Source: Hydrogenimonas sp. (GTDB lineage: Bacteria > Campylobacterota > Campylobacteria > Campylobacterales > Hydrogenimonadaceae). From it: a DNA stretch of 64,000 nt. Position 1 is the first letter of the stretch, and each line of letters starts with the position of its first letter. Of this stretch, positions 5,538 to 38,646 are shown piece by piece. The DNA lies in NCBI GenBank assembly GCA_015490295.1, contig WFYC01000066.1, positions 1 to 64,000 of the forward strand, in the 5' to 3' direction. Under the pieces are notes generated by a model. That model was given only the letters and a program-made list of their open reading frames with translations, made no database searches and was not told where the DNA came from. Both the position numbers and the translations under genes were made by a program.

Positions 5538-5586
5538 TCGGCAAAAAGAGCTATCATATAGAAATTTTGGTTTTAGAGGAGAAGCT

Positions 5587-9371: not shown

Positions 9372-9419
9372 TCTATCCCCGTTTTTTTGGTAGAATTATA
9401 CCCAAAAAAAGGGTTTTTA

Positions 9420-10136: not shown

Positions 10137-10154
10137 GGTCCAGTGCCCCGGAAA

Positions 10155-10958
10155 TCAGGCCAAAACCTCTTTGCGGTTGGTCTTTGTCTGCAGGTAGTCG
10201 GATATCTGCATAAGCGAGAATGTAACCAGAAAGATCATCAGACCGGGGAAAAAGCTTATCCACCATGCGATCTGCATCACCTCTTTGCCCTCGCTTATCA
10301 GGCTCCCCCAACTCATTTGGGGCGGAGTGATTCCAAGCCCCAGAAAACTCAGAGCGCTTTCGCTCAAAATCGCCCCGCCGACCCCGAAAGTGAAGCTGAT
10401 AAAAAAGATGGGTGCCAATAGAGGCGCGAAATATTTCAGAATTATCTTCGGTGTCGGCACACCGCCGATTTTCAAAATCTTTATAAACGGCTTCTGCCCT
10501 ATCGAAAAGCTCTCGGCCCTTATCATGCGCCCCATCGTCATCCATCCCGTAACGGAGATGACAAATATAAGAACCCATACCGACGCCTCGATGTAGCTAA
10601 CGAGTGCGAGCAGGAGGAAGAATGTGGGGAATGTCAGGAAGAGATCCACGATCACGACGAAAACTTTATCCACCCTGCCCCGGAAGTAGCCGGCCGTAAC
10701 ACCGACCATCAGGCCTATCATGGAGGCGATCAGAGCGCTTCCGACCCCTATAATCAAAGAGACCTGCCCGCCCTGCATCAGCCTTGCGAGAATGTCGCGC
10801 CCGAGCCTGTCGGTGCCCAACGGGTGCTCAAACGAGGGGGGCATCAAAAGTGCATCCGGATTTAGATCGAAAGGGCTGGCACTATATATCATGGGGCCGC
10901 CGAAAGAGAATAGAAAAAGGGCAACAATCAGCGCGACGCTGATACATGGACATCTCAT
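10155..10958 (-). CDS. ABC transporter permease, DppC/OppC type
   Basis: 267 residues with an N-terminal membrane helix, the periplasmic HPLGTDRLGRDIL motif of DppC/OppC/NikC permeases, five further helices and the ATPase-coupling EAA-type loop (ESALSFLGLGITPP...WGSLI). It would form an inner-membrane peptide, nickel or similar importer with a DppB-type partner. No partner permease, binding protein or ATPase is in the window. It starts 3 bases after the flgK stop, so it is read from the flagellar operon unless it has a promoter inside flgK. Confidence 0.9.
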   Translation of the reverse strand: MRCPCISVALIVALFLFSFGGPMIYSASPFDLNPDALLMPPSFEHPLGTDRLGRDILARLMQGGQVSLIIGVGSALIASMIGLMVGVTAGYFRGRVDKVFVVIVDLFLTFPTFFLLLALVSYIEASVWVLIFVISVTGWMTMGRMIRAESFSIGQKPFIKILKIGGVPTPKIILKYFAPLLAPIFFISFTFGVGGAILSESALSFLGLGITPPQMSWGSLISEGKEVMQIAWWISFFPGLMIFLVTFSLMQISDYLQTKTNRKEVLA

Positions 10959-10961
10959 ATG

Positions 10962-12806: not shown

Positions 12807-12807
12807 C

Positions 12808-13236
12808 TCAGACCCTCAGCTCTATTAGAGAGGCTACTTTCGGACTTTTGCCTGTATATCCATCCTTCTCTATCGGAAATATCTCTTCGTATAGAGAGTT
12901 GTAAAATTCACCCACGGAAACTACAAAGCGGGCATAATATCTATTTACGGAGTGAAGTTTTTCCAGAGTTTCACGAAGCAGGCCAAGCCTTCTTTGTGTC
13001 TCTTCATCAAGAAGCTCGGAAAGTCCGCTTTCCGGATGATCTTTGAGCAAAACCACTATTTCGTTATCGATCAGAGCTTTATGTTTTTCAAATGACGCGA
13101 TCCTATCCTCTTTGGCCTTGACTCGGCCGAACATCGAATCGTGGCGTGCACTCTTTATATCATCGATGTCCAGTGACGTCAGCTCGATCAGTGCATCGAG
13201 GTCTTCAATAGCTTTAAGTAGGTAGTGCGTCAACAT
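12808..13236 (-). CDS. flgN: FlgN-like flagellar export chaperone
   Basis: 142 residues, almost entirely helical, with long heptad-like stretches (KAIEDLDALIELTSLDIDDIKSARHDSMF, RLGLLRETLEKLHSVNRYYARFV). Sequence conservation in FlgN is low; the call rests on the helical character and on the position directly upstream of flgK and downstream of flgM. It would hold FlgK and FlgL for export. A strong AGGAAGGA ribosome site precedes the ATG. Confidence 0.8.
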   Translation of the reverse strand: MLTHYLLKAIEDLDALIELTSLDIDDIKSARHDSMFGRVKAKEDRIASFEKHKALIDNEIVVLLKDHPESGLSELLDEETQRRLGLLRETLEKLHSVNRYYARFVVSVGEFYNSLYEEIFPIEKDGYTGKSPKVASLIELRV

Positions 13237-13248
13237 AAACTTTCCTTC

Positions 13249-13449
13249 CTATTCTGGTTTGAGCTCCTGCGCCATTTTGGTAGCTGTCGCCCGCAGATCG
13301 ATTTTATACTCATCGTTCTTGACCTGCTGTTTCAGCTCGTCAATGCGTGTCTGCTCTTTAATCTGTTGTTTTTCAACAGCCATATCTTCGTTCTTCTTCA
13401 TTTCGTTCATGATGTTCGAACTGTTGTTGGCACCTACATTTCTGATCAT
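13249..13449 (-). CDS. flgM: Anti-sigma-28 factor FlgM
   Basis: 66 residues, the short form usual in Campylobacterota. The hydrophilic N-terminal part (IRNVGANNSSNIMNEMKKNE) is followed by the amphipathic C-terminal region (RIDELKQQVKNDEYKIDLRATATKMAQEL) that matches the sigma-28-binding and rod-like segment of FlgM. It inhibits FliA until it is neutralised or exported. It has its own sigma-28-type promoter just upstream. AAGGA lies 7 bases before the ATG. Confidence 0.88.
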   Translation of the reverse strand: MIRNVGANNSSNIMNEMKKNEDMAVEKQQIKEQTRIDELKQQVKNDEYKIDLRATATKMAQELKPE

Positions 13450-13490
13450 TATGTATCCTTTTGCATTATTATAGTATCTGCTTAATTATA

Positions 13491-13498
13491 CTATCGGC
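13491..13498 (-). promoter_or_regulatory. Sigma-28 (FliA) -10 site for flgM
   Basis: On the minus strand GCCGATAG matches the sigma-28 -10 consensus GCCGATAA at 7 of 8 bases, about 42 bases before the flgM ATG, in the 75-base flgJ-flgM gap. The -35 region is AT-rich and weak. A TATAAT (13490-13485) overlaps downstream, so dual sigma-70/sigma-28 use is possible. Confidence 0.65.
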
Positions 13499-13524
13499 AA
13501 AATTGTACATTTATTAAGAGCCCT

Positions 13525-13800
13525 TTAGAGATTTTTTTCGGTCAAGAACTTATAGAGGAGTTCACTGTAACCGAATGCTCCGCTCAGCTCCCTGCTCATC
13601 TGGTCGTTCTGCATCGAACGGTAGATCTCCCTGCCCGGATCCTTCGGGAGTAAGGGATCTTCGACACTTATCGCTTTATCCAGAAGCATCTTTATGATGA
13701 TCGCTTCAAAAGCATCGGTCTGCTCTTTAAGTTTCACATCGTCAAGACCTGAAACCTGGGGTATCGATTGTTGATATTCATTAATATTCAGCGTCTCCAC
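13525..13800 (-). CDS. flgJ: FlgJ rod-binding protein (rod-scaffold domain only)
   Basis: 91 residues, equal to the N-terminal rod-binding domain of FlgJ, with no C-terminal peptidoglycan hydrolase domain. Typical pattern: LKEQTDAFEAIIIKMLLDKA, then YRSMQNDQMSRELSGAFGYSELLYKFL. It caps the growing rod in the periplasm. The single-domain form is usual in Campylobacterota, where another enzyme cuts the wall. It lies 10 bases after flgI. Confidence 0.9.
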   Translation of the reverse strand: METLNINEYQQSIPQVSGLDDVKLKEQTDAFEAIIIKMLLDKAISVEDPLLPKDPGREIYRSMQNDQMSRELSGAFGYSELLYKFLTEKNL

Positions 13801-13810
13801 ATCTCTCTCC

Positions 13811-14869
13811 TTATATTATCTGCAGATCCGCATGTATTGCGCCCGCGTTTTTCATCGCTTCAAGTATAGATATAACATCTTTCGGCGTTGCACCAAGCTT
13901 TTTCAGCGAACGGGCAAGATTTGCAACTGTTGCCGCTCCCGGTTTTACGACAAGCGCATGCTGATTGGGCTGCAGCTGCAGATTTGAACCCATATTGAGC
14001 GAAGCACTCCCTTTTTTCAGCGCAGGAAGAGCTTTCCTCTCTTCAATTTTTATCGTAATGTCACCGTGAGTTATCATTACAGGTTCCACTTCGACCTCTA
14101 CACCGGAGACTACCGTACCAGTTCTTTCGTCAATCACGATTCTCTGTTTCGCCTTGTAGTCTATAGAGAGCTCTCCAACGGCGGCAAGAAATTCGACCAT
14201 GCTCAAAGAGTCCGGTTTTTTCAACCTTATAGTTCTGGAATCCACTGCAACCGCCACCCGCTCTTTATAGTATCGGTTAAGAATATTCTGGATATTTATG
14301 GCGTTTTGAAAATTGGACTCTTTCAGACTCAGTGTCGCCTGTTTCTGGCCGTAGAGGTTGAAAGGGATCTCCTGCTCGACCAGCGCTCCTCCCGGAATCC
14401 TTCCGGCTGTCGCATGGTTCAAAGATCCGGCACCCCTGCCGTTACGGCCTCCTATGGTCACGGAACCCTGCGCAAGCGCGTATATCCTCCCGTCCACACC
14501 TTTGAGGGGTGTCATCAGAAGAGTGCCACCCTCTATCGACTTGGCATCACCTATCGAAGAGACTATAACATCTATCTTGTCGCCCTGCCTCGAAAACGGA
14601 GGCATGGTCGCCGTAACCATTACTGCCGCGACATTTTTGGACTTTATATCTTTCGGGTCGAGCTTCACGTTCATCGTCTGAAGCATGTTGGAGATTGTCT
14701 GCAAAGTAAACTTCGAAGTGGTGCCGTCACCGGTCTTGTTGAGTCCAACAATGAGACCGTAACCTATAAGCTGGTTGTCTCTGACCCCGATAATGTTGCT
14801 TATATCTTTTATTTTGACAGCATGAACCAACAGAGGTGCAAGCAGAAGAAGAAAAAGCGTTCGTTTCAA
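13811..14869 (-). CDS. flgI: Flagellar P-ring protein FlgI
   Basis: 352 residues. A signal peptide (LFLLLLAPLLVHA) is followed by the conserved FlgI body: IGVRDNQLIGYGLIVGLNKTGDG, the NVAAVMVTATMPPFSRQGDKIDV block, TLLMTPLKGVDG and the C-terminal LGATPKDVISILEAMKNAGAIHADLQII. It forms the periplasmic P ring around the rod. It is first in the flgI-flgJ-flgM-flgN-flgK run and has a sigma-54 promoter. Confidence 0.97.
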   Translation of the reverse strand: MKRTLFLLLLAPLLVHAVKIKDISNIIGVRDNQLIGYGLIVGLNKTGDGTTSKFTLQTISNMLQTMNVKLDPKDIKSKNVAAVMVTATMPPFSRQGDKIDVIVSSIGDAKSIEGGTLLMTPLKGVDGRIYALAQGSVTIGGRNGRGAGSLNHATAGRIPGGALVEQEIPFNLYGQKQATLSLKESNFQNAINIQNILNRYYKERVAVAVDSRTIRLKKPDSLSMVEFLAAVGELSIDYKAKQRIVIDERTGTVVSGVEVEVEPVMITHGDITIKIEERKALPALKKGSASLNMGSNLQLQPNQHALVVKPGAATVANLARSLKKLGATPKDVISILEAMKNAGAIHADLQII

Positions 14870-14920
14870 AGCCTACCTTTCATCTACCCGTCGAGAGCGG
14901 GTCTGTTTGCAGACCTCAAA

Positions 14921-14934
14921 GCAAAATTTGTTCC
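14921..14934 (-). promoter_or_regulatory. Sigma-54 (RpoN) promoter for flgI
   Basis: On the minus strand AAGGAACAAATTTTGCTT has GG (14934-14933) and GC (14922-14921) with 10 bases between them and the GGAAC-N5-TTGCTT form seen at Campylobacter flagellar promoters. It lies in the 69-base rsmD-flgI gap, with a predicted start near 14909, 40 bases before the flgI ATG. Confidence 0.85.
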
Positions 14935-14938
14935 TTTT

Positions 14939-15532
14939 TCAGGCTCTGTAATAGCTCAGAGAGCTTTTTCCGAATTTTTTCTCCTTTACCTTTTCGAACG
15001 GACCGATCTTTCGGGGCATGGGCTCTTTTGTCATATGCTCAACTATAATGGAGATAATCTGTTCAGGGTCGATGTCGGCTATGGTCTTTATGATCTTTTC
15101 ATATATATCACCCTCTCCTTCCCGTATCGAAAATGGAGGATCGATATAAAGATATGTCTTCTGTGCACCTTTTTTGAGCTCGCCAAGTATCTGCGGAAGA
15201 ATCTCAAAAGCGTCCCCCTCCCTTATGTCGCATCTGTATGGATCGATAGCTTCGCAGTTGGCGCGAAGAGTCCTGAAGGAGTCTCTGTTTCTCTCGATAA
15301 ACCACGCTTTTTTGGCGCCTCTGCTAACGGCCTCCAGACCTACGGAACCGCTGCCGCCGAACATCTCTACAAAGTTGCGGTCGACAATTTCGAACTGCAA
15401 CGTATTGAAAACAGACTCTCTCAGCCTGTTTTTCGAGCTTCTAGTGACCCTTTTTGACGGAAGCTCTATCTTTTTCCCGCGATACTTGCCGCCGATAATA
15501 TATGTATAAAGTCTCCTATCTTCTCTTTTCAT
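14939..15532 (-). CDS. rsmD: 16S rRNA (guanine-966 N2)-methyltransferase RsmD
   Basis: 197 residues. The N-terminal IIGGKYRGKKIELP is the RsmD signature. The SAM motif is EMFGGSGSVGLEA (56-68) and the catalytic motif IV is DPPF (131-134). It methylates G966 in the small-subunit rRNA. The start overlaps the end of the upstream 119-residue gene by 17 bases. Placement before flgI matches Campylobacter jejuni as I remember it. Confidence 0.93.
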   Translation of the reverse strand: MKREDRRLYTYIIGGKYRGKKIELPSKRVTRSSKNRLRESVFNTLQFEIVDRNFVEMFGGSGSVGLEAVSRGAKKAWFIERNRDSFRTLRANCEAIDPYRCDIREGDAFEILPQILGELKKGAQKTYLYIDPPFSIREGEGDIYEKIIKTIADIDPEQIISIIVEHMTKEPMPRKIGPFEKVKEKKFGKSSLSYYRA

Positions 15533-15875
15533 AATGCTCTTTGAATATTTTGATCAACTCCTGTGCAAACTCGTGCACCGCTCTCTCTATCTGCCCTTCC
15601 AGGGTCTCTTCCTCTATCGCGAAGTGTTTGAAGGCCTCTCTTGTCCGATCGGCCTGAAGCTTCTCCTCTATTTTAATCATGAGTCTCGATCTGGAGAACG
15701 GTTTGCCAAGATCCGCACCGCTGTCAGTCCCTATACGCAAAACCGGCTTTTCGCTCTGAACGGGATGATCCGTAACGAGAAGTTCCGCATCATGCTCCGG
15801 CACCAAATGGTCGTCAAGAAACTTTCTTAGACTCTTTTCAAGTAGTATCGATCGGCATGATAACGCTATTTTCAT
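15516..15875 (-). CDS. Hypothetical protein resembling a degenerate receiver domain, 119 aa
   Basis: I do not recognise a named family. The fold outline resembles a response-regulator receiver: a first strand MKIALSC, a helix, a strand ELLVTDHP ending in aspartate D36, a strand PVLRIGT, and LGKPF (56-60), which looks like the conserved lysine-proline of the beta-5 loop. The acidic pair after beta-1 and one middle element are missing, so phosphorylation is doubtful. A charged helical tail follows. It overlaps rsmD by 17 bases and lies beside flagellar genes. The ATG at 15875 is used because the 71 residues of open frame upstream are low-quality. Confidence 0.6.
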   Translation of the reverse strand: MKIALSCRSILLEKSLRKFLDDHLVPEHDAELLVTDHPVQSEKPVLRIGTDSGADLGKPFSRSRLMIKIEEKLQADRTREAFKHFAIEEETLEGQIERAVHEFAQELIKIFKEHYEKRR

Positions 15876-24320: not shown

Positions 24321-25865
24321 ATGTTCAAGACATCACAGGAAAAAATGGAAAGAGAGAGTATAGGTTTCCATAAAATAGTTTCCATCAACGCTTATCAAAA
24401 TATCTCTTATCAGTTTCAGAACAATGCGCTGCAAAAAATCGAGAAACTTCAATACGACAAAAGAAACTTTGTAGTCTCCACCCTAAACTCGAAGGACTTC
24501 ATCTCATCCATAGTGGAAGTGAGCGTAAATATCCCGCCAGAAGATCTGCAGGATGCGATCGAGCTCAAAGCATACGACGACCTCGGTCTCGACCAGGCTG
24601 TCGAATACATTATAAGATATTTCGAAATACCGGGCCGCAAAACGGACAAATTGCGCTCGTTCCATGTATTTGTCGCAGAGCCCAATGTGATTCATGAGGT
24701 GTTCGACAATGTACGCCAGCAGGTCAAATATATAGACTACATATACCCAAAACCCTATCTTATACAGAACGTCTACGAAAAAGATATACTCGAAGCGTAC
24801 GGTGTACACGGCTATCTATACTTCCAGAAAGAGGATGCCTTTTTGGCACTCTTTAAAGATGGTGAGTACATCTACTCGAAATCGTTGAAATACTCTTTTG
24901 AAAATATTTACGAAAGGTTTTGTGAACTATACGGAGAGAGGGTGGATGAAGCCTCTTTTTACGAGATGCTGCAGAGCGAGGGGCTTAAAACTTCGAACTT
25001 CGACTACCAAGACCATTTGATGAAGCTTTTCAGCGAAATTTTTCTCTACGTAAACGACATTCTGATATATGCGAAGAGGGCCTTTGAGATAGAGAAGATC
25101 GACATGTTCTACACAGGCTCGGAAACAGGTCCCGTACTTGGTCTAAATGAATATGCCCATACTTATCTCGGAATCGAGGCAAGCGATTTCGATTTCGATT
25201 ATGAAATGGAAAAGGGGGACTGGTATGTCGATCAGTTCCATTTCCTATCTATCCTGGAGGCAATCAAGAACATAGAGGGTGAAGAGAGTCCCAACTTCAC
25301 GATTTTCTTCAGGCCGCCTCCATTCGTTGCAAGAAGAAGCGGACAGTTCATCATCACTACAGCCGCTACAATCGTGCTGGCTCTTTCACTTCCGGTCTAT
25401 AACTACACATACGACACATACGTAAAAATAAGTAACGACAGGTTGAAAAAAGAGGAGAAGCAGCTGAACGAACTTACAACCTCCATAAGAAACGAAATTG
25501 CATCGCTGGAGAAACAGAAAAACGATATCCTGGCAAGAATAAAAGCCGAAAACGATCTTTTCGAAACGAAAAAGAAGATTCTGGCTGCGATATATGACAA
25601 AAAAGTCAACTACCCCATGAAAGCCAAAACGATTGTCGGATTCGGAAACAATATGACTAAGTTCGATGTGCGAGTCACCAAAATAAGCGACGAAGACAAC
25701 CTTTTCACGCTCACACTCTACGCTCGAAGCGAGAAGAGAATCACTCAATTTATAAAATTTTTGACCGATACATACGAAAACAGGATTCATGCAGATATAG
25801 ATAAAATCTATAAAGATGAAGAGACCGGAATATATCATGGCGATCTAAAGGTGACTGTACTATGA
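24321..25865 (+). CDS. Fused PilM-PilN (GspL-like) inner-membrane platform protein
   Basis: 514 residues. Residues 1-330 form a soluble domain in the place of the actin-like PilM/GspL cytoplasmic region, though the classical ATP motifs are weak. One membrane helix lies at about 342-362, a coiled coil at 366-425, and a C-terminal ferredoxin-like domain of PilN type (RVTKISDEDNLFTLTLYARSEKRI). A single polypeptide doing the job of PilM plus PilN resembles GspL. It is first in a ten-gene operon and overlaps the PilO-like gene by 4 bases. CGAGG lies 8 bases before the ATG. Confidence 0.72.
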   Translation: MFKTSQEKMERESIGFHKIVSINAYQNISYQFQNNALQKIEKLQYDKRNFVVSTLNSKDFISSIVEVSVNIPPEDLQDAIELKAYDDLGLDQAVEYIIRYFEIPGRKTDKLRSFHVFVAEPNVIHEVFDNVRQQVKYIDYIYPKPYLIQNVYEKDILEAYGVHGYLYFQKEDAFLALFKDGEYIYSKSLKYSFENIYERFCELYGERVDEASFYEMLQSEGLKTSNFDYQDHLMKLFSEIFLYVNDILIYAKRAFEIEKIDMFYTGSETGPVLGLNEYAHTYLGIEASDFDFDYEMEKGDWYVDQFHFLSILEAIKNIEGEESPNFTIFFRPPPFVARRSGQFIITTAATIVLALSLPVYNYTYDTYVKISNDRLKKEEKQLNELTTSIRNEIASLEKQKNDILARIKAENDLFETKKKILAAIYDKKVNYPMKAKTIVGFGNNMTKFDVRVTKISDEDNLFTLTLYARSEKRITQFIKFLTDTYENRIHADIDKIYKDEETGIYHGDLKVTVL

Positions 25866-26506
25866 AAATTATTGAAGATATGCTGGAAAAGCTGGATATC
25901 TACTTCGAAGAGAAAAAAGAGAGTGAATTCTATCTTATGGTATTGGCAGTTGTCGCCGTTTTTGGACTGATATCATACTCATATCTTATTCCTATTACGG
26001 AAAAGGAGCTGAAAAAGGATCTGCAGATACAAAAGCAGCTCGAAAGCAAAATACATGCAGAAAAATCCTACCTGACCACTGTAACCGTCAACGGCGACCA
26101 GCGCTTCAAGATAAAGCAGCTCCAGAGTGAGATAGTCAGGCTGAAGACCAGGTATAGCGATCTGAAAGAGATCAACGAATATTCCGACTACCAGATTCAG
26201 ACCCTTTCGGAACTTCTGTTCAACGAGAAGAACTGGGCCAAGTTTCTTGACTCCATCGCCCTGAAAGCCAAGAAGAACAATATTAACATCTCTTTGATTT
26301 CAAACAAGTTCATAAACAACAAAGACAGTTTCGGTCACGTTCTTGAAATAGGAGTCGATTGTGAAGGAAGCTATAGGGACATGATCAAATTCATGAACGA
26401 GATTGAAGAGAGCGAGCTTGTTGTCGATATATACAGTATAAATCTGGAAAGTGACAAAAAAATAAATGCAAACTTTAAGGTATCGGTATGGGGAATAAAC
26501 TATTGA
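25862..26506 (+). CDS. PilO-like inner-membrane protein
   Basis: 214 residues: a short cytoplasmic start, one membrane helix at about 23-44, a coiled coil (about 50-110) and a C-terminal periplasmic ferredoxin-like domain (SLISNKFINNKDSFGHVLEIGVDCEGSYRDMIKFMNEIEE). That layout is PilO/GspM-type. It overlaps both neighbours, and with the preceding protein would form the alignment complex of a type IV pilus or type II secretion system. Confidence 0.75.
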   Translation: MKIIEDMLEKLDIYFEEKKESEFYLMVLAVVAVFGLISYSYLIPITEKELKKDLQIQKQLESKIHAEKSYLTTVTVNGDQRFKIKQLQSEIVRLKTRYSDLKEINEYSDYQIQTLSELLFNEKNWAKFLDSIALKAKKNNINISLISNKFINNKDSFGHVLEIGVDCEGSYRDMIKFMNEIEESELVVDIYSINLESDKKINANFKVSVWGINY

Positions 26507-26910
26507 TTAAAGCGTCTGTTATAATTTTTTCGACGGCGGCGTTGCTCAGTGCCGAAATAACGATCAACGATATCGACAAACTGGTTAACGACATAAAACA
26601 GGAACGCATAGGTCTCAAGGAGAAAGAGATCCGGAGTGCGAAAGATCCGTTTATATACCCCAACGGGAAACTCGGGCGGATCATCCGCTCTTCCAAAACC
26701 GTGAAGAAGCGTTACAGATTCGTTTTGAGTGCAGTTATAAACGACCGTGTCAAGATCAACGGCAGATGGTATAAACTCAACTCCAAAATCAACGGTTTCA
26801 GGCTTAGCCGCGTTAGTAAGGACCATGTTTTGCTTACACGTAAAAACGAGCGGATTCGCATCTTCTTGAAGCGTTCAAAGAGTAAAAAAATCAAACTTTT
26901 CGTTAAATAA
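26488..26910 (+). CDS. PilP/MshK-like periplasmic protein
   Basis: 140 residues with a signal peptide (IIFSTAALLSAE), a linker carrying RSAKDPFIY and a C-terminal small beta domain (YRFVLSAVINDRVKINGRWYKLNSKINGFRL) followed by a strongly basic tail. PilP/GspC-type proteins use a DPF-containing linker and a beta domain to contact the secretin. Overlaps the PilO-like gene by 19 bases and is followed by the secretin. Confidence 0.7.
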   Translation: MGNKLLIKASVIIFSTAALLSAEITINDIDKLVNDIKQERIGLKEKEIRSAKDPFIYPNGKLGRIIRSSKTVKKRYRFVLSAVINDRVKINGRWYKLNSKINGFRLSRVSKDHVLLTRKNERIRIFLKRSKSKKIKLFVK

Positions 26911-26919
26911 GGATTGGGA

Positions 26920-28470
26920 ATGAAATATATGAAAACTATCAGGCTGTCTCTTCTGGCGGCTGCCGTAACTGCATCGATAGGCTTTACGACAAATCTGCAG
27001 GCGGCATGTGAAGATAATCTTTTCAATATCAAGGCCAATCAGGGAACCAGGGCATCCGAAATCATAAATCAACTCGCTGACCAGTGCGACCTGACGCTGA
27101 TAATCAAAGATAAAGAAGCGGCAAAAAAGCTGAGAACACGCCTGAACCGCCTGTCGCTCAAAGACGCCACTCTGCCCGAAGTTCTCAACGTGGTACTCAA
27201 TGAACACAATCTCAACTACTCGCTGGAAGGGAACATATTGAAGATATCGTATCTTCTGACGAAAACTTTCCATGTCAACTACATCAGCACAGACAGAGAG
27301 AGTACAAGCAGCACCAAGGTGACGCTATCGAGCGGAGCTGCTAGACAGCAGGCAGCCACACAGAGCCGACAGGGTGTCACAACCAGCACCATGAGCGCCG
27401 GAGAGTCCGAAAGCGGTATAAATGTCACTTCGGACGATAAATTCATATTCTGGTCAGAGCTTCTGGAACAGATTAGAGATATTCTGAACAGGCCGGAAGA
27501 CACATACGAAGCGGGAGATCCAGTTGTAGACAAAGAGTCCGGTCTGGTGACAATCACAGGGACAAAGAAACAGCTCGACAGGGTGGAAGAGTACATAGAC
27601 AACCTGATGGATAGGCTTCATAAACAGGTGCTTATAGATGTTAAGATGTATACAGTCGTACTCAACAAAGGAAACGAGACGGGAATTGACTGGAGACAAT
27701 TATATAACCTGCAAAATTTCAAAATCAACGCAGAGAGCCTAACGACAAACGAAAATGTATATGAAATACAGTATCCCGGAACGATGGATGTTCCGTATAT
27801 AAAAACTTTTGGTCAGGGTACCGCTACATTTACGGACATAGCTATGACAGCACAGATCGGCACGATCGTCAAATTTCTGAAGTCACAGGGTGATGTCCAC
27901 TCCGTCTCCAATCCAAAAGTATTGACACTAAATAATCAGGCTGCAATGATAACGGTGGGCAAACAGTACTTCTATAAAATAAAAAACAGTACTACCACCA
28001 GTAATACTGGCGGAAGCACGGTTGCACAAAATGAGATCATAGATTCTGTATTTGCGGGGATCTTGCTAGATATCACCCCTGAAATCGCCGCTGACGGTAC
28101 AATAACCCTGAAAATCAATCCGTCGATAAGCGATACGATAACTCCTGTAACAAACGATAACCTGAACAGATCGATGCCGCCTGATCTCGAGCGCAGGCAG
28201 ATGGCTTCGGTCGTTACCGTAAAAGACGGTTCGCACGTAATACTCGGCGGCCTGATTACCGACAAAGTAAACAAATCGACCAACAAAGTACCTCTGCTCG
28301 GAAATATCCCTCTGCTCGGATACGCATTCAAATACGATGAGCTTACGGACGAGAAGGTGGAGCTTGTGATTATCGTAACACCGCATCTTGTTGCAGCGAA
28401 ATCATCTATGACTCTGAAGGATTTGGGATATGATCGGCTATCTGACAGCAATTTGACCAAGATGCGATGA
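26920..28470 (+). CDS. mshL: MSHA/type II-like secretin (MshL/PilQ)
   Basis: 516 residues. A signal peptide (residues 1-28) is followed by N0/N1-type domains (ASEIINQLADQCDLTLIIKDKEAAKKL) and the C-terminal secretin barrel with VSNPKVLTLNNQAAMITVG, then SDTITPV and the end motif VPLLGNIPLLGYAFKYDELTDEKVELVIIVTPHLV. It forms the gated outer-membrane pore. The start is the ATG at 26920, 6 bases after AAGGA. The MshL subtype is suggested by the neighbouring MshM-like ATPase. Confidence 0.93.
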   Translation: MKYMKTIRLSLLAAAVTASIGFTTNLQAACEDNLFNIKANQGTRASEIINQLADQCDLTLIIKDKEAAKKLRTRLNRLSLKDATLPEVLNVVLNEHNLNYSLEGNILKISYLLTKTFHVNYISTDRESTSSTKVTLSSGAARQQAATQSRQGVTTSTMSAGESESGINVTSDDKFIFWSELLEQIRDILNRPEDTYEAGDPVVDKESGLVTITGTKKQLDRVEEYIDNLMDRLHKQVLIDVKMYTVVLNKGNETGIDWRQLYNLQNFKINAESLTTNENVYEIQYPGTMDVPYIKTFGQGTATFTDIAMTAQIGTIVKFLKSQGDVHSVSNPKVLTLNNQAAMITVGKQYFYKIKNSTTTSNTGGSTVAQNEIIDSVFAGILLDITPEIAADGTITLKINPSISDTITPVTNDNLNRSMPPDLERRQMASVVTVKDGSHVILGGLITDKVNKSTNKVPLLGNIPLLGYAFKYDELTDEKVELVIIVTPHLVAAKSSMTLKDLGYDRLSDSNLTKMR

Positions 28471-29273
28471 GTAAATACAGACAGCTGCAGAATATTTTTA
28501 TAGACAGAATCGAAGTAAATCAGTATATCGGTCTCGATACCTCTATACTTTTTTACAACAAACTTCAAGAGAGCATACAAAAACCTCTCAAGATGATTCT
28601 GCTCTATGGAAAACCGGGGACAGGCAAAAGTGTCCTGATCAATAAAATATACCACGATACAAAAGATAAAAGAAACGTTTTTCTAATATCTACACCTATA
28701 CAGCAGGAAGAGGAGTTCATAAAAAAGCTTTACACCTTTCTGCTTCCCGAATCCACGTTGCCGGAAGACCTTACCTACAATAAATTCATCGATATATGTA
28801 ATGCACTCAAAGAGAAAAAACATATTACCGTTTTACTTGATGAAGCTCAGCTCTATTCATCATCAATGATGGAAAAAATAAGGCTGATATCAGACACCAG
28901 AACCATCAAATTTGTTGTTTCTCTCCATAAAACGGAAAAAGAGGACCTTATTGCAAAAGAGCATTTCCAATCGAGGATCTGGGAGACCATAGAGTTGAAA
29001 AACGGAACGATTCACGATACCAACATGTATGTACAGAAAAAACTGATTCAGCAGAACTATTTCGAGATCGCAAATATGTTTCGTAAAAACAATATCAGAT
29101 TGATCCATAAATTTACAAAAGGAAACTACAGAGAGATAAACAAACTCATGTTTACACTATTTGAGATCTACGACTACTACGAGACCAACAAACCCTCCAA
29201 AATAGCCGGCTCCAATATAAAGAACAAATATCTTGAGATGTCGGCACTGAAGTTGGGATATATCAATGCTTGA
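28467..29273 (+). CDS. mshM: MshM/ExeA-like AAA ATPase
   Basis: 268 residues. Walker A GKPGTGKS is at 48-55 and Walker B is VLLDEAQL, then a sensor region (KFVVSLHKTEKEDL, FQSRIWE). In this family the ATPase works with a membrane partner to place the secretin in or through the peptidoglycan. It starts in the secretin stop (ATGA overlap) and overlaps the TPR protein by 8 bases. No peptidoglycan-binding domain is seen here. Confidence 0.85.
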   Translation: MSKYRQLQNIFIDRIEVNQYIGLDTSILFYNKLQESIQKPLKMILLYGKPGTGKSVLINKIYHDTKDKRNVFLISTPIQQEEEFIKKLYTFLLPESTLPEDLTYNKFIDICNALKEKKHITVLLDEAQLYSSSMMEKIRLISDTRTIKFVVSLHKTEKEDLIAKEHFQSRIWETIELKNGTIHDTNMYVQKKLIQQNYFEIANMFRKNNIRLIHKFTKGNYREINKLMFTLFEIYDYYETNKPSKIAGSNIKNKYLEMSALKLGYINA

Positions 29274-30171
29274 GATAGACAAACTCGAAAGAGAGTGGCT
29301 CAGATACAGGCTAAAACGTATTAAACCGTGGATTTTTTTGTCGATTACGCTTCTTCTAACAGTGGCAACCGCCGTATGGGTAACTAAAAGCGGTTACAAT
29401 TCGACTCTCAAAGGCGGCGGCAACGAAAAGGTGAAGATAGCGGTTCAAACTGCCGCTACGGCAACGGACGCCTCTTCAAACGTCGAATCGGTCTCTGCCA
29501 CCGTTGAAAAAGAGAGTGTAACGAAGAGTGAAAAGGTAGTTGAAAGAAAACCGAAAGAGGCGGTTTCGCAAACAGCACCTCAGGAAAAAGAGACAACAAA
29601 AGAGCAAATGCGCTCCGCCGAAGCCGGGGAGCCAGGCGTGATTCTTAACCCAGATACCGGTTTCATGGAGTCTCTTTCGGCTCCTAAAAAAGAGAGACGT
29701 CCCCAAAAAGTGTATAGAGCCGTAGAGACTGCAAGAGAGGAAACCGTCTCCTCTTCGACGATAGATAGACCGAAGAGCTCCACTGTTGAAAAAAGCGCCG
29801 ATACCGAAACGGAAGTTAAGAAGAAGAACTCTGAAAATACCGGTGGTTCAGGTTTGCAAATTCTCTCTACCAAAACGAACAATACTCTTCAACTTCTGAT
29901 CAAACGATTCAACCGGAACAATGATCCGAAGCTTGCTTCCTATATCGCGCAGAGCTACTACAAAAAAGGTGATTACAAAGAGGCTGTAAAATGGAGCGTG
30001 GCAGCAAATTCACTCGATCCGTCCGGCGAAGAGAGCTGGCTCATATTCGCCCGTGCAAAAGTGAAACTGGGAAAGAGGGATGAGGCCGTCAAAGCCTTGA
30101 GAGTCTATCTGAATCAGTATAGCTCCAGAAAAGTGAGATCATACCTAAGAAGGTTGGAGTCAAAAGAATGA
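29266..30171 (+). CDS. MshN-like membrane-anchored TPR protein
   Basis: 301 residues. The cytoplasmic start is followed by a membrane helix at about 22-40 (PWIFLSITLLLTVATAVWV), a long low-complexity Ser/Thr/Glu/Lys linker (60-200) and C-terminal TPR repeats (NDPKLASYIAQSYYKKGDYKEAVKWSVAANSLDP, then AKVKLGKRDEAVKALRVYL). This is the MshN arrangement. The likely job is scaffolding between the ATPase and the secretin. Confidence 0.75.
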   Translation: MLEIDKLEREWLRYRLKRIKPWIFLSITLLLTVATAVWVTKSGYNSTLKGGGNEKVKIAVQTAATATDASSNVESVSATVEKESVTKSEKVVERKPKEAVSQTAPQEKETTKEQMRSAEAGEPGVILNPDTGFMESLSAPKKERRPQKVYRAVETAREETVSSSTIDRPKSSTVEKSADTETEVKKKNSENTGGSGLQILSTKTNNTLQLLIKRFNRNNDPKLASYIAQSYYKKGDYKEAVKWSVAANSLDPSGEESWLIFARAKVKLGKRDEAVKALRVYLNQYSSRKVRSYLRRLESKE

Positions 30172-30716
30172 AAAAAGCTCTTCTTGTGAGTGCGCTCCTG
30201 CTCTCGTCACTCACCTCTGCGGATATAGAGAGCCTCTATAAGTTGTACCAGAGCAAGAAGTATAAGCAGGCATGTCAGCTCGGTCTGAGAATGTTCAAGG
30301 AGCAAAAAAAGGATTCCAGGTTCCTGATGCTCTATGGGCTTTCATGTCTCAACGCCGACTATATTGACCGTCTGGCCGTTCCCATGACCGCTCTTCGATA
30401 CTCGAAGACCGAACGTGCAAATGCGAGCTATTTCGCTACGATACTTCTGCAAAAGAAGCTTCTGTACCACTCTCTTTTGGATGGTATCGATATATCTAAC
30501 CTAAAACTTCCAAAAACCGATTATATACTCTCTAAGGTTTTCGATCTCTATACAAAAAAAGAGTATAAGAAGGTCGATGACAAATACTATTTCATACCGA
30601 AAAAGGGTGCCGGTTTGATGTATGTTCTTTATCTGGAAGGAACAGGGAGAGTCACCAAGATGACTATTGAAGAGAGACTGGATGACCATATTATCAAGAT
30701 ACACAGGTATTGGTAG
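30168..30716 (+). CDS. Exported TPR-like hypothetical protein of the pilus-type operon
   Basis: 182 residues with an N-terminal signal peptide (LLVSALLLSSLTSA) and a TPR-like stretch (ESLYKLYQSKKYKQACQLGLRMFKEQKKDSRFLMLYGLSCLNADY). I recognise no family for the C-terminal half. It starts in the stop of the MshN-like gene (ATGA) and ends directly before gspE, so it belongs to the operon and probably to the apparatus. Confidence 0.7.
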   Translation: MKKALLVSALLLSSLTSADIESLYKLYQSKKYKQACQLGLRMFKEQKKDSRFLMLYGLSCLNADYIDRLAVPMTALRYSKTERANASYFATILLQKKLLYHSLLDGIDISNLKLPKTDYILSKVFDLYTKKEYKKVDDKYYFIPKKGAGLMYVLYLEGTGRVTKMTIEERLDDHIIKIHRYW

Positions 30717-32459
30717 ATGAGCAGAATCATTGAGCTTTTGATGCATAGCGGACTTGTAACGAAAGAGCAGATAGCCGACCTGCTCAAAAACAAGAAAGAG
30801 AAAAAGATAACGATCAAGACCCTGTTGGAGCATCAGGTCGTAAAGCCTGAGCAAGTTTACAAACTCATAGCCGACGAAGTGAGAAAAGGGAACCTCTCTC
30901 TTGAGATGCTCGAAAAAGAGAGCGGTTCGATAAATATAAACAAAGTTCTGATGCATCTGGCAAAACTGATGAATATGGATTACGTCAACCTTGACGAGGT
31001 AGATATAGATCTGCGCCTTGTCGGCAAGCTGCCTATGCAGAAACTGGAGAAGATAGGCGTTCTACCTATCAGGGAGAGCGATCTAAGCGTCACTGTCGCA
31101 TTCAAAGATCCGTTCGATTTCAGTGCCCAGGAAGCCATACAGCGTCTCTTCCCGAAAAAACCGGTCAATCCCGCCATCGCCAGGCCTTCACAGATAGATT
31201 ATCACTTAAACCGCCTTGAGATGTCGGAGAGTATCAAAGGGCTCATAAACGAGATAAGACAGGAGATCTCCGAGAGCGCTTCCGCAACCGAAGCGAGTGA
31301 ATCATCCGCAATCTTGAAGCTTATCGAAGTGATCCTGAAATCGGCTATCATAGCGAGAGCCAGCGATATTCATATCGAGCCCACAGAGAACAGCTGTATT
31401 GTCAGAAGCCGTATAGACGGTATGCTTGCCGAGAGTTTCCGCTTCGACAAAGACATATATCCGCCGCTCTCTTCCAGGCTGAAACTTCTGTCTAATCTGG
31501 ATATCGCCGAGCGCAGAAAACCGCAGGACGGTCGCTTCTCCGCCACTATCGTAAATCGTGAGTTCGACTTCAGGGTATCTACCCTTCCGATCATGAACGG
31601 CGAATCGATCGTAATGAGGATTCTCGACAAATCGAAAGTGATGATCCGTCTTGAAGATGCCGGAATGAGCCAGCACAACTTCAACATATTCAATGAAGCG
31701 CTCAAGGTTCCCTACGGCATAGTTCTGGTCACAGGACCAACGGGAAGCGGTAAGACAACTACGCTCTACGGAGCACTCAACAACCTAAAAAGTGTGGACA
31801 GAAAGCTCATAACGGTCGAAGACCCTGTGGAGTACCAGATGAACCTGGTTCAGCAGGTGCAGGTGAATTCGAAAGTCGGACTAACTTTCGCCAGTGCGCT
31901 GCGCTCGATTTTGAGGCAGGACCCCGATATCATCATGATCGGTGAGATCAGAGACCAGGAGACTCTGAGAATCGCCATTCAAGCTGCACTGACCGGTCAC
32001 CTGGTTCTCTCCACCCTACACACAAACGACTCGATAAGTGCGATCAACAGAATGGCGGACATGGGGATAGAGCCCTATCTGATAAGCGGCTCTCTAATAG
32101 CAATCGAGGCACAGCGTCTCGTTAGAAAGATATGTCCGAACTGTAAAAAAAGCGTAGAAATTCCCGATCATGTTATCAATGAACTCCAGGAGTTCCTACC
32201 TGAGAAGTACCAGTTTTTCAAAGGAAGCGGCTGCAAGGAGTGTCAGGGGACCGGATATATAGGGCGGGAGATGATCAGTGAGGTTCTACGGGTGGACGAT
32301 ACACTGACCAGCATGATCGCACGTGAAGCATCTAAAGCCGAATTGACGCAGGAGGCGTTGAAACAGGGATTCGTCTCTATGATTCAAGACGGTGTGAACA
32401 AGGCGGTCGAAGGTAAAACGACAATAGATGAAGTACTAAGAGTTGCGAGGTTATCATGA
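30717..32459 (+). CDS. GspE/PilB/MshE-type assembly ATPase
   Basis: 580 residues. An N-terminal MshEN/GspE N-domain precedes the motor: Walker A GPTGSGKT (340-347), Asp box, Walker B (DPDIIMIGEIRD) and His box (TGHLVLSTLHTNDS). A tetracysteine zinc motif is present at C473, C476, C506 and C509. It powers pilin or pseudopilin extrusion from the cytosolic face. It overlaps gspF by 4 bases. Confidence 0.95.
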   Translation: MSRIIELLMHSGLVTKEQIADLLKNKKEKKITIKTLLEHQVVKPEQVYKLIADEVRKGNLSLEMLEKESGSININKVLMHLAKLMNMDYVNLDEVDIDLRLVGKLPMQKLEKIGVLPIRESDLSVTVAFKDPFDFSAQEAIQRLFPKKPVNPAIARPSQIDYHLNRLEMSESIKGLINEIRQEISESASATEASESSAILKLIEVILKSAIIARASDIHIEPTENSCIVRSRIDGMLAESFRFDKDIYPPLSSRLKLLSNLDIAERRKPQDGRFSATIVNREFDFRVSTLPIMNGESIVMRILDKSKVMIRLEDAGMSQHNFNIFNEALKVPYGIVLVTGPTGSGKTTTLYGALNNLKSVDRKLITVEDPVEYQMNLVQQVQVNSKVGLTFASALRSILRQDPDIIMIGEIRDQETLRIAIQAALTGHLVLSTLHTNDSISAINRMADMGIEPYLISGSLIAIEAQRLVRKICPNCKKSVEIPDHVINELQEFLPEKYQFFKGSGCKECQGTGYIGREMISEVLRVDDTLTSMIAREASKAELTQEALKQGFVSMIQDGVNKAVEGKTTIDEVLRVARLS

Positions 32460-33700
32460 AATATTATCAAGTCACTATGCTGGTCCGCGGAAACCGCCGA
32501 AACATTGTGCTCAAAGCAAAAGACAGAGCGGACGCCATCAACAAAATCAAGAAGGATTACCAGGGTACGATGCTCAGGATCAAGGAGGTTTCGGCCCCTA
32601 TCGATGCAACGATCAAAGAGTTCTTTTCGCAGTTCAGCTCTACTGTCGCCAACAAAAAAGTGCAACCCAAAAACCTCATCGCGGCCATAAGACAGCTCGC
32701 GGTAATGACAAACGCCGGAATCTCGGTGCACGATGCACTCAACGAGATTGCAAATGCGACCAACGACGCCAAGCTTAAAACGATATTGACGCAGGCATCT
32801 GAGAGCATAAACTCCGGATTGAGTCTTTCGGACACCTTCAAGCGCTACAGATACGATGTCGGCGGAATCACCCTCGCCATGATAGAGCTTGGCGAACAGA
32901 CAGGAAACATGGCCGACGCTCTCTCCGCCCTGGCCGATATCCTCGAAGAGATTCAGGAGAACGTCCAGAAGTTTAAAAAAGCGATGCGCTACCCGATGAT
33001 CACACTGGGAGCCATGGCGATAGCATTTACCATTCTGATTATGGTGGTCGTACCGAAATTCAAAGCAATTTTCGAAAAGTTCAATGCAGACCTCCCGCTT
33101 CCAACAAAGATACTACTCGGTATAGAGAGTGTACTGAGCAACTACGGCCTGCTTGTACTCGGCGGTCTTATCCTCATAATCGTTCTGGTTCTCTACCTAT
33201 ACAGGAACAACGAAGAGTTCAAATACAAGGCCGACAAACTGATGTTAAAGACCTACCTGATCAAAGATATCATATTTTTCGCCACGCTCAACCGCTTCTC
33301 CATCGTCTTTACCGAGCTTGTCCATGCGGGTATTCCTATCGCCGATGCACTCGACACCGCCACGGGTATGATCGACAATGCGGTGATGAAAGAGAAACTC
33401 GAATCGGTAAAAGTCGCAGTATCCAGGGGTGTGACCCTGACGGAGGCCTTCAGGGATACCGGAGTTTTCGAAAATATGATCATCCAGATGATCGCCGCCG
33501 GAGAAAGCAGCGGTCAGCTCGACAATATGATGCGGAAAGTTACCGATTACTACAGAATGCGGTTCAACTATATTCTCGACAATATGTCATCCTACATAGA
33601 GCCTATAATGCTCGCGATAATCGCGGGACTGGTGCTTCTGCTCGCCCTTGGAATCTTCCTTCCGATGTGGGATATGGCCCGCGCCGTCAAGGGGCACTAA
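32456..33700 (+). CDS. GspF/PilC/MshG-type platform protein
   Basis: 414 residues with two repeats of the T2SSF domain, each a cytoplasmic four-helix bundle (AIRQLAVMTNAGISVHDALNEI and NRFSIVFTELVHAGIPIADALD) and membrane helices at about 185-205, 235-255 and a C-terminal one (PIMLAIIAGLVLLLALGIFLPMW). It is the polytopic inner-membrane platform on which GspE turns. It is last in the operon, and its end overlaps the convergent helicase by 14 bases. Confidence 0.95.
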   Translation: MKYYQVTMLVRGNRRNIVLKAKDRADAINKIKKDYQGTMLRIKEVSAPIDATIKEFFSQFSSTVANKKVQPKNLIAAIRQLAVMTNAGISVHDALNEIANATNDAKLKTILTQASESINSGLSLSDTFKRYRYDVGGITLAMIELGEQTGNMADALSALADILEEIQENVQKFKKAMRYPMITLGAMAIAFTILIMVVVPKFKAIFEKFNADLPLPTKILLGIESVLSNYGLLVLGGLILIIVLVLYLYRNNEEFKYKADKLMLKTYLIKDIIFFATLNRFSIVFTELVHAGIPIADALDTATGMIDNAVMKEKLESVKVAVSRGVTLTEAFRDTGVFENMIIQMIAAGESSGQLDNMMRKVTDYYRMRFNYILDNMSSYIEPIMLAIIAGLVLLLALGIFLPMWDMARAVKGH

Positions 33701-35853: not shown

Positions 35854-38646
35854 TCACCTGCCCGGATGCCTTCGTATCCTGCGCCCTCCCCTGTAGCACT
35901 CCTGGCATATACCGAACCGAAAGTTGGGCGGCAGTGGTTTTGCGCACCTTTTGCAAGCTCTGGCGAATACACCTTTGCGCAAAGAGCGTTCGATAAACGA
36001 GTTGAGTATCTCCCGCGATCTCAATGCGTTCTGCGTATCCACGAAAGCTTCAGGAAAGCGATACGACAGCCACAGATAGAGCGAAACCTCCTTGACTCTC
36101 TCTTCGGCATCGAAAAGCATATCGGAAGTCTGCGCAACCGACGGCAGATCTTCGGGAATCGCAAAAGGTATGGGCTCATCGCGCTCTAGCGATATCAGGT
36201 ATCTGTGAAAAACGCTCTCCAGATAGGCTGATCCCAGACTCAAAGGGGCGCATGAAAGGTGGTATTTGGCTTTCAGCTCGAGCCTGTAGAGATCTACCAT
36301 TTTAGCGATTTCGAGCATGTTTTCGATGTTGGCGGCTACAAACGGACCGTCGAAACGCATATTTTTGACGAAAAAGCCGAGAATCTCGGAAAGGCTCTGC
36401 GTCTCTACTATTTTGGCGACCAGCTCTATATGCTCGAAGTTGGCCATAACACGGTACGGTCCGTGTATCGGAACCGACTCTTCGTCTATCAGCTCGGTTA
36501 CCGTATTCAGAACCGGGCCGCTCAAAGCTCCGACATACCCCTCCTCGTGAAGCCCGTAACGGCCCGCTCGTCCCGCTATCTGGCGTATTTCGGAGGGTGT
36601 AAGCAGGCGGCGGCTCTGCCCGTCGAATTTCGAATCCCTGGCAAAGAGAATCGTCTTTATAGGAAGATTCAGCCCCATGGCGATCGCATCCGTGGCCACA
36701 AGTATCTGCGACTCCCCTTCCCTGAATCTTCTCGCTTCTTCGCGGCGCACTTCGGGGCTCAGGTTTCCGTAGACCACCGAGACATCGTATCTGCCGCCAA
36801 GCTGCTCTTTAAGCGCCAGAACATCCCTTCTGGAGAATGCTACGATGGCGGTTGAGGGTTCGAGTCTTTTCAAAGATGTCGGACGGTGGTTGAGTATAAG
36901 AGGCGCCTTTCTCTCGAAACGTACCACCTCCAGCTCCTCATCGAGCCACTCGGCAAGCTCTTTTACGGCCTCCAGTGCATCTTCGCTTCCGGTCATTACG
37001 ACGGTACATGCGGGTATGCCTATTATGGCGTTCGCCCACGCCCACCCCCTGTCGGGATCGTCTATCATCTGTACCTCGTCTATTACGCAGACATCGACTT
37101 CGATTTGAAAGTTTGCCATCTCGATCGTCGAACTGACATGCGCGGCCTCTTCATCTATAAGCTGCTCCTCTCCCGTTACCAAAGAGGCCTGAAGCCCCCA
37201 TTTCAAAAGAGTCTCGTAACCTTCGAGAGCCAGCAGGCGAAGCGGTGCCAGGTAGTATCCTGTATCGGCATCTTTGAGCATCTTCATGGCGCTGTAGGTC
37301 TTTCCACTGTTTGTCGGGCCGACATGGAATATGAGCTTTCTGCCCATCTCTCTGGCAAGCGGAAAGAGATTTTTGAAGTCTCTTATCGTTCTGGCAAGCA
37401 GCTCCTCTCTCTGCTTTTTCAGCTTGAGGCTCTCTATTTTGCGTGCGAAGTGCCTGTTTATGTTTTTGAGCGTCTTGTAGGGAACCTCCAGAACTCCGTT
37501 TTGCTCTATCACACCGATAACAGCTTCGGCGATTATGGACTCCACCTGCGACGGCTCCATATCCAGACCATCCGCCTCGTTCAAAAGGGCATCTCTCAAA
37601 GCGTATAGCTCCCCATCGAACTGCGCCTCCACCTCCCTTTTGCGTATTTCGAAATCCTCATCTATACCAAGAGGCTCGGAGGCCCAAATAGCCTGGTATA
37701 GCCACCGCTTCTCAACCCCGAGCATAAGACGGTAGCCGGCTCTCCACTTCTCATTCGAAAAGAGCACTTTCGTCTCGCTGCGAAACAGTCTGATGGTATC
37801 GCCGGTAAACTCCGGATGCGAAATATCGAAATTTTCGAGCAAAATATCGCACAAAAAACTCTCAGGAATCGGAACGGAGATTAAGTCGCAGCTCTCGGGC
37901 AGCCGTTTTAGAGCCTGAACGACCTGCTCCCTCGTCAAGTATCGGTTCGGCCGGCCGGCCATATCCAAAAACGCCTCTATCTGCTTCTCTTTCTTGGATA
38001 CGGCCTCCGCTTTGCACTCATCGAGTTTCGAGACGAGCAGACTCTCCTGCAGCTGCACTATTTCACCATCTTCGAACGGCGGACACTCCAACTCCACTAT
38101 CTTGTGGAACTTTTCGTCAAATATCGAAAACTCGAAAGAGTGGAAAAAACAGAACCTTCCATCTTCGTCGAATATGCCGTCGCAAGCCTCTTCGAGTCTG
38201 TTTCGTTTCTGTACGCTTCTCAGTTTTGCAAGCGCCCCGGCAATCCGCCGTGGGGTGATCTTTTTGAGTTTAGATTCACCAAACTGCTCTCTTATAGCCA
38301 CAGCCTCGGCCGGCGTATGCTCGATTTGGGCCAGTATCTCATCTATTTTTCGCTCTCTAACCTCCGAATTGGGAACACTCTTTTGCGGTCCGAAAGTGGT
38401 ATCGAGAGACCTTAGATACTCTGTAATCAGAGCTCTGTCCGCGGCATCCCCGGACGACCACAAACGCCTGAACGCACGCACAAGATCGGCTTTGCTCAGA
38501 TGCTGCTCTTTTAGAGATAGTATCATCGCCATCTCTATCAGATTGTCCAGAGGCAGACGCTCTATCCCCTCGTCAAAACCTTCCCCTCCGAAGATCTTTC
38601 GGATAGTCTGATTGTACTTTATAAGTTTTTTCTTCTTTTTTGCCAT
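35854..38646 (-). CDS. Suv3-like RNA helicase with C-terminal zinc-ribbon-like motif
   Basis: 930 residues. The helicase core has Walker A HVGPTNSGKT (441-450), motif II DEVQ (523-526), ATDAIAMGLNLPI (motif V) and QIAGRAGRYG (689-698), which is the mitochondrial Suv3 pattern rather than DEAD-box. About 430 residues precede the core with no recognised domain, and the C-terminus holds four cysteines (C898, C901, C914, C917). Eukaryotic Suv3 acts with an exoribonuclease in RNA decay; a similar RNA-surveillance role here is inference. Confidence 0.85.
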   Translation of the reverse strand: MAKKKKKLIKYNQTIRKIFGGEGFDEGIERLPLDNLIEMAMILSLKEQHLSKADLVRAFRRLWSSGDAADRALITEYLRSLDTTFGPQKSVPNSEVRERKIDEILAQIEHTPAEAVAIREQFGESKLKKITPRRIAGALAKLRSVQKRNRLEEACDGIFDEDGRFCFFHSFEFSIFDEKFHKIVELECPPFEDGEIVQLQESLLVSKLDECKAEAVSKKEKQIEAFLDMAGRPNRYLTREQVVQALKRLPESCDLISVPIPESFLCDILLENFDISHPEFTGDTIRLFRSETKVLFSNEKWRAGYRLMLGVEKRWLYQAIWASEPLGIDEDFEIRKREVEAQFDGELYALRDALLNEADGLDMEPSQVESIIAEAVIGVIEQNGVLEVPYKTLKNINRHFARKIESLKLKKQREELLARTIRDFKNLFPLAREMGRKLIFHVGPTNSGKTYSAMKMLKDADTGYYLAPLRLLALEGYETLLKWGLQASLVTGEEQLIDEEAAHVSSTIEMANFQIEVDVCVIDEVQMIDDPDRGWAWANAIIGIPACTVVMTGSEDALEAVKELAEWLDEELEVVRFERKAPLILNHRPTSLKRLEPSTAIVAFSRRDVLALKEQLGGRYDVSVVYGNLSPEVRREEARRFREGESQILVATDAIAMGLNLPIKTILFARDSKFDGQSRRLLTPSEIRQIAGRAGRYGLHEEGYVGALSGPVLNTVTELIDEESVPIHGPYRVMANFEHIELVAKIVETQSLSEILGFFVKNMRFDGPFVAANIENMLEIAKMVDLYRLELKAKYHLSCAPLSLGSAYLESVFHRYLISLERDEPIPFAIPEDLPSVAQTSDMLFDAEERVKEVSLYLWLSYRFPEAFVDTQNALRSREILNSFIERSLRKGVFARACKRCAKPLPPNFRFGICQECYRGGRRIRRHPGR

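Follow-up and report, generated by a model that had tools for sequence, protein, structure and literature searches.

An MSHA-related type IV pilus assembly operon with unlinked pilins in Hydrogenimonas and its relationship to the Campylobacter Cts system

The genes of the msh locus run in the order secretin, AAA ATPase, TPR protein, assembly ATPase, and platform protein, which is also the order in the operon described here. MSH systems are reported from Epsilonproteobacteria and are described as having no linked peptidase and as almost always forming one locus, with mshA allowed as a loner (PMC6668835). DNA uptake in Campylobacter jejuni is reported to involve the secretin, the ATPase, and Cj0683 (PMC8308473, PMC10046745), and Table 3 of the former paper gives lengths of 472 aa for CtsD, 202 aa for CtsP, 195 aa for CtsX, and 519 aa for CtsE. 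According to the latter, Cj0683 precedes priA, carries a pilin motif, and interacts with CtsE in a two-hybrid system; its loss nearly abolishes DNA uptake, and no homologue outside Campylobacter is reported (PMC10046745). None of the titles and abstract beginnings listed in the literature searches states a link between Cts and MSHA.

The operon lies in a window of 64,000 nucleotides, which is the whole stretch of DNA analyzed (C66:1-64000), from a 1.77-Mb draft genome that is 82% complete. It probably encodes the envelope machine of an MSHA-lineage type IV pilus whose other genes are dispersed and which is orthologous to Cts, with a role in DNA uptake that we infer from this relationship.

The assembly operon and the rest of the pilus inventory

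Nine collinear genes occupy positions 24321 to 33700 of the forward strand, between the presumed era gene and a gene encoding a UvrD/Rep-family helicase, and all nine frames are open. An earlier note, made from the window alone, had described an operon for the assembly of an MSHA-related type IV filament, without a pilin gene linked to it; this description is upheld, as are the coordinates, the strand, and, through Pfam and NCBIfam matches, most of the gene identities. It had counted ten genes, the tenth of which was not found. The genes are as follows.

24321..25865, +, PilM-PilN-type fusion (GspL-like), 514 aa; one hydrophobic helix at about residues 341-359; fold likeness at the C terminus and a profile match to the fusion of the second operon
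25862..26506, +, PilO, 214 aa; Pfam PF04350, 27.3 bits (cutoff, 22)
26488..26910, +, PilP-like protein, 140 aa; weak T2SSB/T2SSC matches below the cutoffs; position; 33% over 60 aa to the copy in the second operon
26914..28470, +, secretin (MshL/CtsD type), 518 aa; Pfam Secretin, 157.6 bits; NCBIfam MshL, 261.8 bits (cutoff, 250.2)
28467..29273, +, AAA ATPase (MshM/CtsP type), 268 aa; AAA_22, 39.7 bits; aligned with CtsP (202 aa) from a C. jejuni-like genome
29266..30171, +, TPR protein (MshN/CtsX type), 301 aa; N-terminal hydrophobic helix at about residues 22-40; TPR matches; 33% over 137 aa to a protein of 195 aa that occupies the CtsX position in the C. jejuni-like genome
30168..30716, +, small protein of no named family, 182 aa; hydrophobic start; two invariant cysteines in an alignment of 9
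30717..32459, +, assembly ATPase (MshE/CtsE type), 580 aa; T2SSE, 446.1 bits; degenerate N-terminal c-di-GMP motif (18.7 bits; cutoff, 38)
32456..33700, +, inner-membrane platform protein (MshG/CtsF type), 414 aa; T2SSF, 171.4 bits

Among the other genes used as landmarks, comEC was identified by Pfam; era, hslU, hslV, rplI, uvrB, priA, ispG, dnaB, lon, proC, tsaD, and zapA are names that we assume by recognition, not by database match.

For the fusion at the head of the operon, searches of Pfam, NCBIfam, and PDB sequences gave no significant match, and its PilM half is putative. A single-sequence structure model has a mean pLDDT of 41 and is usable only near the C terminus (about residues 439-514), and with this poor model the four best rows of a structure search were XcpY twice, PilN, and EpsL (Z of 8.8, 8.5, 8.1, and 7.6), with unrelated proteins close behind from Z 7.5; the modeled domain resembles the periplasmic domains of these proteins. 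The fusion profile found nothing in E. coli HofM and HofN, a weak test with one sequence of each, and it matched the fusion of the second operon at a probability of 100. Because this genome's second operon also encodes a homologous fusion, the fusion is not the sign of a distinct subtype that it had been taken for.

The operon had also been credited with two TPR-type proteins, and there is one, at 29266-30171. The 182-aa protein encoded at 30168-30716 drew no significant hit in searches of Pfam, NCBIfam, and PDB sequences, and AlphaFold run on it without an alignment gave a mean pLDDT of 44. It was matched in 88 of 249 Campylobacterota genomes and is found in both operon types of one of them (G215). 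Its start looks signal-like by eye, and its gene lies between those for the TPR protein and the ATPase. Our guess is that it is probably a periplasmic accessory factor.

The pilin motif is absent from the whole of the window's contig (C66; 136,531 bases), including the sequence just outside the window, where a linked pilin operon had been considered. A search of the remaining genome, as proposed in the earlier note, recovered 13 pilin-motif matches, 12 of them above the cutoff (five on C74, four on C19, two on C76, and one each on C75 and C28), together with a single prepilin peptidase on C71; C22 and C19 each encode one PilT-family ATPase above the pilT_fam cutoff. The reported absence of pilin, peptidase, and retraction ATPase is therefore true of the window only and not of the genome. 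Three assembly-type ATPases are encoded, on C66, C74, and C19. The second of these belongs to another MSHA-type operon, which has the same gene order minus the 182-aa gene and is flanked by pilin genes on both sides; C19 carries a type II secretion system (T2SS) with pilin-motif genes after the platform gene and a GspD match of 373 bits (cutoff, 351).

Relationship to cts and to the second operon

The order in C. jejuni GP013 is secretin, AAA ATPase, TPR protein, ATPase, and platform protein (470, 202, 195, 519, and 393 aa), identical to that in the window except for one extra gene in the latter between the counterparts of ctsX and ctsE. The C. jejuni-like genome used for comparison (G125), which belongs to the same order as the window genome, encodes a CtsP 97% identical to that of GP013. 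In a tree of the ATPases alone (27 rows), window-type (11 rows), second-type (5 rows), and Cts (4 rows) sequences form three supported groups within one clade. This clade stands apart (100/99) from seven PilB/GspE-type rows, two of which carry a PilB label that we assigned. The ATPase phylogeny suggested in the earlier note thus sets this motor off from PilB and GspE and leaves the order of the three groups unresolved; in this tree, two of the Cts rows are C. jejuni-like and the other two come from fast-evolving relatives, and the Cts branches are long.

A concatenated tree of secretin, ATPase, and platform protein (41 rows), to which intermediate Campylobacteraceae were added, places Cts among the 34 window-type rows (98/98), with six second-type rows in a clade of their own (100/99). 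Within the former, a 27-row clade holds both the window and the C. jejuni cts operon (84/98). C. jejuni falls among its own family, f10, which joins f9 and f18 in a group of 19 rows (100/100), and the 27-row clade unites this group with that of the window. Members of the window-type clade come from across the phylum, with a branching that agrees for the most part with the families, and FastTree recovered the same 34/6 split. This tree was built under plain LG+G4 and rooted on one distant T2SS row, and it is to be read with the unlike letter makeup of the Campylobacter rows and the meeting of long branches in f13 in mind. Plasmid records yielded outgroup ATPases and no secretin match at E ≤ 1e-30. 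A match in a Clostridiales MAG (L080; 35% over residues 9-76) was dropped as a probable chance match. Overall, the window operon is very probably a member of the Cts lineage.

The two MSHA-type operons also differ in the N-terminal motif of the ATPase. A strict MshE-type pattern occurs in all six second-type ATPases versus 4 of 34 window-type ones (L073, L116, L117, and L122); these four lie outside the 27-row clade, in which the count is 0 of 27. Four second-type ATPases (L052, L064, L091, and L133, of which L133 was assigned its type from BLAST alone) reach 55 to 70 bits against the NCBIfam motif model, including 70 bits for the second operon of this genome, versus the subthreshold score of the window ATPase. 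The model has no match to window-type L066 and L060 in the full lists and none to L075 and L058 among the best 25 of 27. These patterns suggest that the c-di-GMP motif was lost in the branch that includes the window and C. jejuni.

Across the phylum, 224 of 249 genomes have an MshL-type secretin match (E ≤ 1e-10), which in 187 is above the family cutoff, a count that covers all MshL-type secretins and not the window-type operon alone. The nine-gene order is found in families f9, f10, f16, f17, and f18 besides f1. The earlier suggestion of a distinct subtype that might make a pilus or secrete a protein does not survive this distribution, the clade common with C. jejuni cts, and the separate T2SS. 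In the fetched stretches, presumed era lies upstream in 19 of 33 window-type loci of relatives versus none of six second-type loci. Seven of the nine proteins are 74 to 94% identical to those of G002, in which the PilM-PilN gene is split between two frames; the TPR protein is 45% and the 182-aa protein 73% identical. A genome of the same genus, G009, a draft rated 100% complete, has the operon without the AAA, TPR, and 182-aa genes.

Exactly one assembly-type ATPase (E < 1e-90) was found in 20 of 45 sampled genomes. Eighteen of these have an MshL-type secretin match and 1 to 13 pilin matches each (counts from two sets that differ in their E limits); G091 has a single pilin match, as does G106, where it is below the cutoff. 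The concatenated tree contains 13 of the 18 ATPases, all in the window-type clade; those of G228, G107, G029, G110, and G106 are outside the tree. The other two genomes, G090 (with an internal stop) and G112, have no MshL-type match and have 3 and 4 pilin matches. A search of 17 g23 genomes returned no MshL-type secretin, no assembly-type ATPase, and 0 pilin matches; five further genomes with no MshL-type match lie outside this sample of 17. One exception, G165, has five pilin matches yet no assembly-type ATPase. Since related genomes are not independent, we attach no probability to this co-occurrence of ATPase and pilins.

Candidate pilins at the priA and proC loci

Pilin genes recur at two places. 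In 10 of 11 picked genomes, including G125, a pilin gene ends between -18 and +21 bp from the called start of the presumed priA; in the 11th (G082), the motif lies 1,464 bp from the priA start, in a frame that was not resolved. In the window genome, pilin1 lies at one end of C75, after the presumed uvrB and a small gene, and one end of C28 carries pilin2 ahead of priA, with comEC downstream, an arrangement that fits a single locus split by assembly. The pre-priA pilin of G125 is like pilin2 of G228 (32% over 154 aa; E of 3e-13, to which the common pilin N terminus contributes), and we take its gene to be that of Cj0683 on the basis of its position and its length of 145 aa. Similarly, a 171-aa pilin of G125, putatively CtsG by its length, is like pilin1 of G228 (48% over 75 aa). 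Homologues of both are present in the window genome, the reference genes having been named by length and position in the C. jejuni-like genome. If these assignments hold, the published statement that homologues of Cj0683 are confined to Campylobacter (PMC10046745) is not borne out.

Pilin-like genes also follow the presumed lon and proC in both G125, where we take this place to be the CtsT locus, and the window genome, where they are the two minor pilins of C76. The two G125 genes score poorly against the pilin motif (20.8 and 14.1 bits; cutoff, 21.2) and have no match to the C76 pilins among the matches listed, so this link is mainly positional. Genome G108 may serve as a bridge: its genes near lon are like the C76 pilins, and one of them (148 aa) is weakly like a 150-aa protein of G125 (E of 4e-6). 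A 1,534-aa protein with Ig/cadherin-like domains precedes the minor pilins in the window genome.

Linked arrangements occur as well. In G187, a PilT-family gene, a pilin2-like gene, a pilin1-like gene, a second PilT-family gene, a 145-aa frame, and two minor pilin genes are followed by the operon in divergent orientation, which has neither the AAA gene nor the 182-aa gene. Its PilT-family proteins share 63% and 65% identity with the pair encoded in the window genome, and the minor pilins are 30% and 29% identical to those of C76. As G187 has a single assembly-type ATPase, there is no other machine of that type for its pilins. The two minor pilin genes of G110 adjoin its operon and its pilin pair lies elsewhere; in neither G110 nor G029 is there a priA beside the pair.

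Function, alternatives, and comparison with known systems

We propose that the assembly ATPase and the platform protein polymerize the pilins of the uvrB-priA pair and the two minor pilins after proC, which would be cut by the C71 prepilin peptidase. PilM-PilN, PilO, and PilP would align the machine, and the filament would exit via the secretin. The two PilT-family motors probably retract the filament, and bound DNA would be handed to ComEC. As a guess, the AAA and TPR proteins may assist the ATPase or help the secretin to assemble. ComEC was present in all 15 genomes tested, two g23 genomes included, and is therefore not discriminating.

DNA uptake is the likely main function here. The two PilT-family ATPases of this genome, versus one ATPase of the whole family in G125 (E ≤ 1e-20), and the large Ig/cadherin-like protein would also suit a general-purpose type IV pilus for attachment and surface movement that was narrowed to DNA uptake only in Campylobacter, as would the linkage of pilin and PilT genes to the operon in G187; all of these are compatible with DNA uptake as one of several functions. 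We consider such a pilus unlikely, as a natural candidate for attachment is present in the second MSHA-type operon, with its pilins and intact c-di-GMP motif. The best score of the window ATPase is to the GspE model (550.9 bits), as might be expected of a type II-like protein secretion machine, but it is under the cutoff of 630; the genome has its own T2SS, the ATPase lies apart from the PilB/GspE-type rows, and the secretin meets the MshL model and not that of GspD, which makes secretion very improbable. Even less credible is a redundant copy of the second operon in the course of decay. Two paralogous operons in one genome, the loss of three of the nine genes in G009, and the split gene of G002 could be read in this way, but the nine open frames, the identities to G002, and the phylum-wide clade speak against it.

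The reading of a DNA uptake pilus explains an operon that looks incomplete, and it nominates pilins, retraction motors, and perhaps a tip protein as candidates for a part in DNA uptake in Campylobacterota outside Campylobacter. The Campylobacter transformation machine would also be tied to MSHA pili, for which more of the mechanism is known. We see about even chances for a broader scenario drawn from these sequence comparisons, in which the DNA uptake machine of most Campylobacterota would be an MSHA-lineage pilus whose motor dropped the c-di-GMP-binding motif and whose pilins were scattered to uvrB-priA and proC; Cj0683 and CtsG would both derive from a single tandem pair of pilin genes that occurs phylum-wide, and G187, with its linked locus and intact motif, would retain the ancestral state. 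The kind of machine is ordinary; what stands out is the dispersal of its pilin set.

Among known systems, the type IVa pilus (PilMNOPQ, PilB, and PilC) has homologous parts, whereas in the window PilM and PilN are fused and the ATPase is apart from the PilB-labeled rows. Compared with the T2SS, the window proteins are below the cutoffs for both GspD (172 versus 351 bits) and GspE. The secretin meets the MshL model of MSHA, which the C. jejuni-like CtsD also passes, at 334 bits; unlike MSH, the window has no linked pilins on its contig, its ATPase fails the c-di-GMP motif, and its operon falls in another clade than the second operon, the one with linked pilins. With Cts, the window operon has in common the gene order, the clade, and unlinked pilins at corresponding places. 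It differs in that the C. jejuni operon is without the PilM-PilN, PilO, and 182-aa genes, whereas the window's AAA, TPR, and ATPase proteins are longer and its genome encodes PilT-family ATPases.

Genes of the window operon and their variants

Within the nine-gene type IV pilus assembly operon, one gene encodes a small protein for which no known family was found; of the 249 Campylobacterota genomes, 88 have a match to it:

window 30168-30716: protein of 182 aa in which two cysteines are invariant

Its gene is missing, together with the AAA and TPR genes, from the window-type operon (L090) on contig C7 of G009, a 100%-complete draft from the same genus. In G002, a relative whose genome is a single contig, two frames share a split gene for the PilM-PilN-type fusion (L063, 13174-14717), which may reflect either a frameshift or a sequencing error.

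Other genes in the window

Two further observations concern the reverse strand. A Suv3-type RNA helicase, of a family best known from mitochondria, is encoded at 35854-38646 (DEXQc_Suv3, 182.9 bits; SUV3_C, 48 bits). A weak T2SSE match (about 62453-62698; 18.7 bits, under the cut-off) lies inside an 870-aa open frame.

Pilus loci beyond the window

Pilus genes on other contigs of the window genome include:

C74 (L052), 3559-15766: second MSHA-type operon, flanked on both sides by pilins
C76 (L093), 3484-8088: 1534-aa protein with Ig/cadherin-like domains, preceding two minor pilins

The ATPase of the C74 operon has an intact c-di-GMP motif. Elsewhere, in G096, eight pilin-motif matches are dispersed across the genome (contigs C1 to C3) and fall into two sets, one of five and one of three, whose members score identically; these are repeated pilin copies, which may serve variation. 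The large C76 protein is a possible pilus-tip adhesin, and proteins of 1412 and 1404 aa that precede minor pilins at two other loci (L131 and L133) show weak similarity to it.
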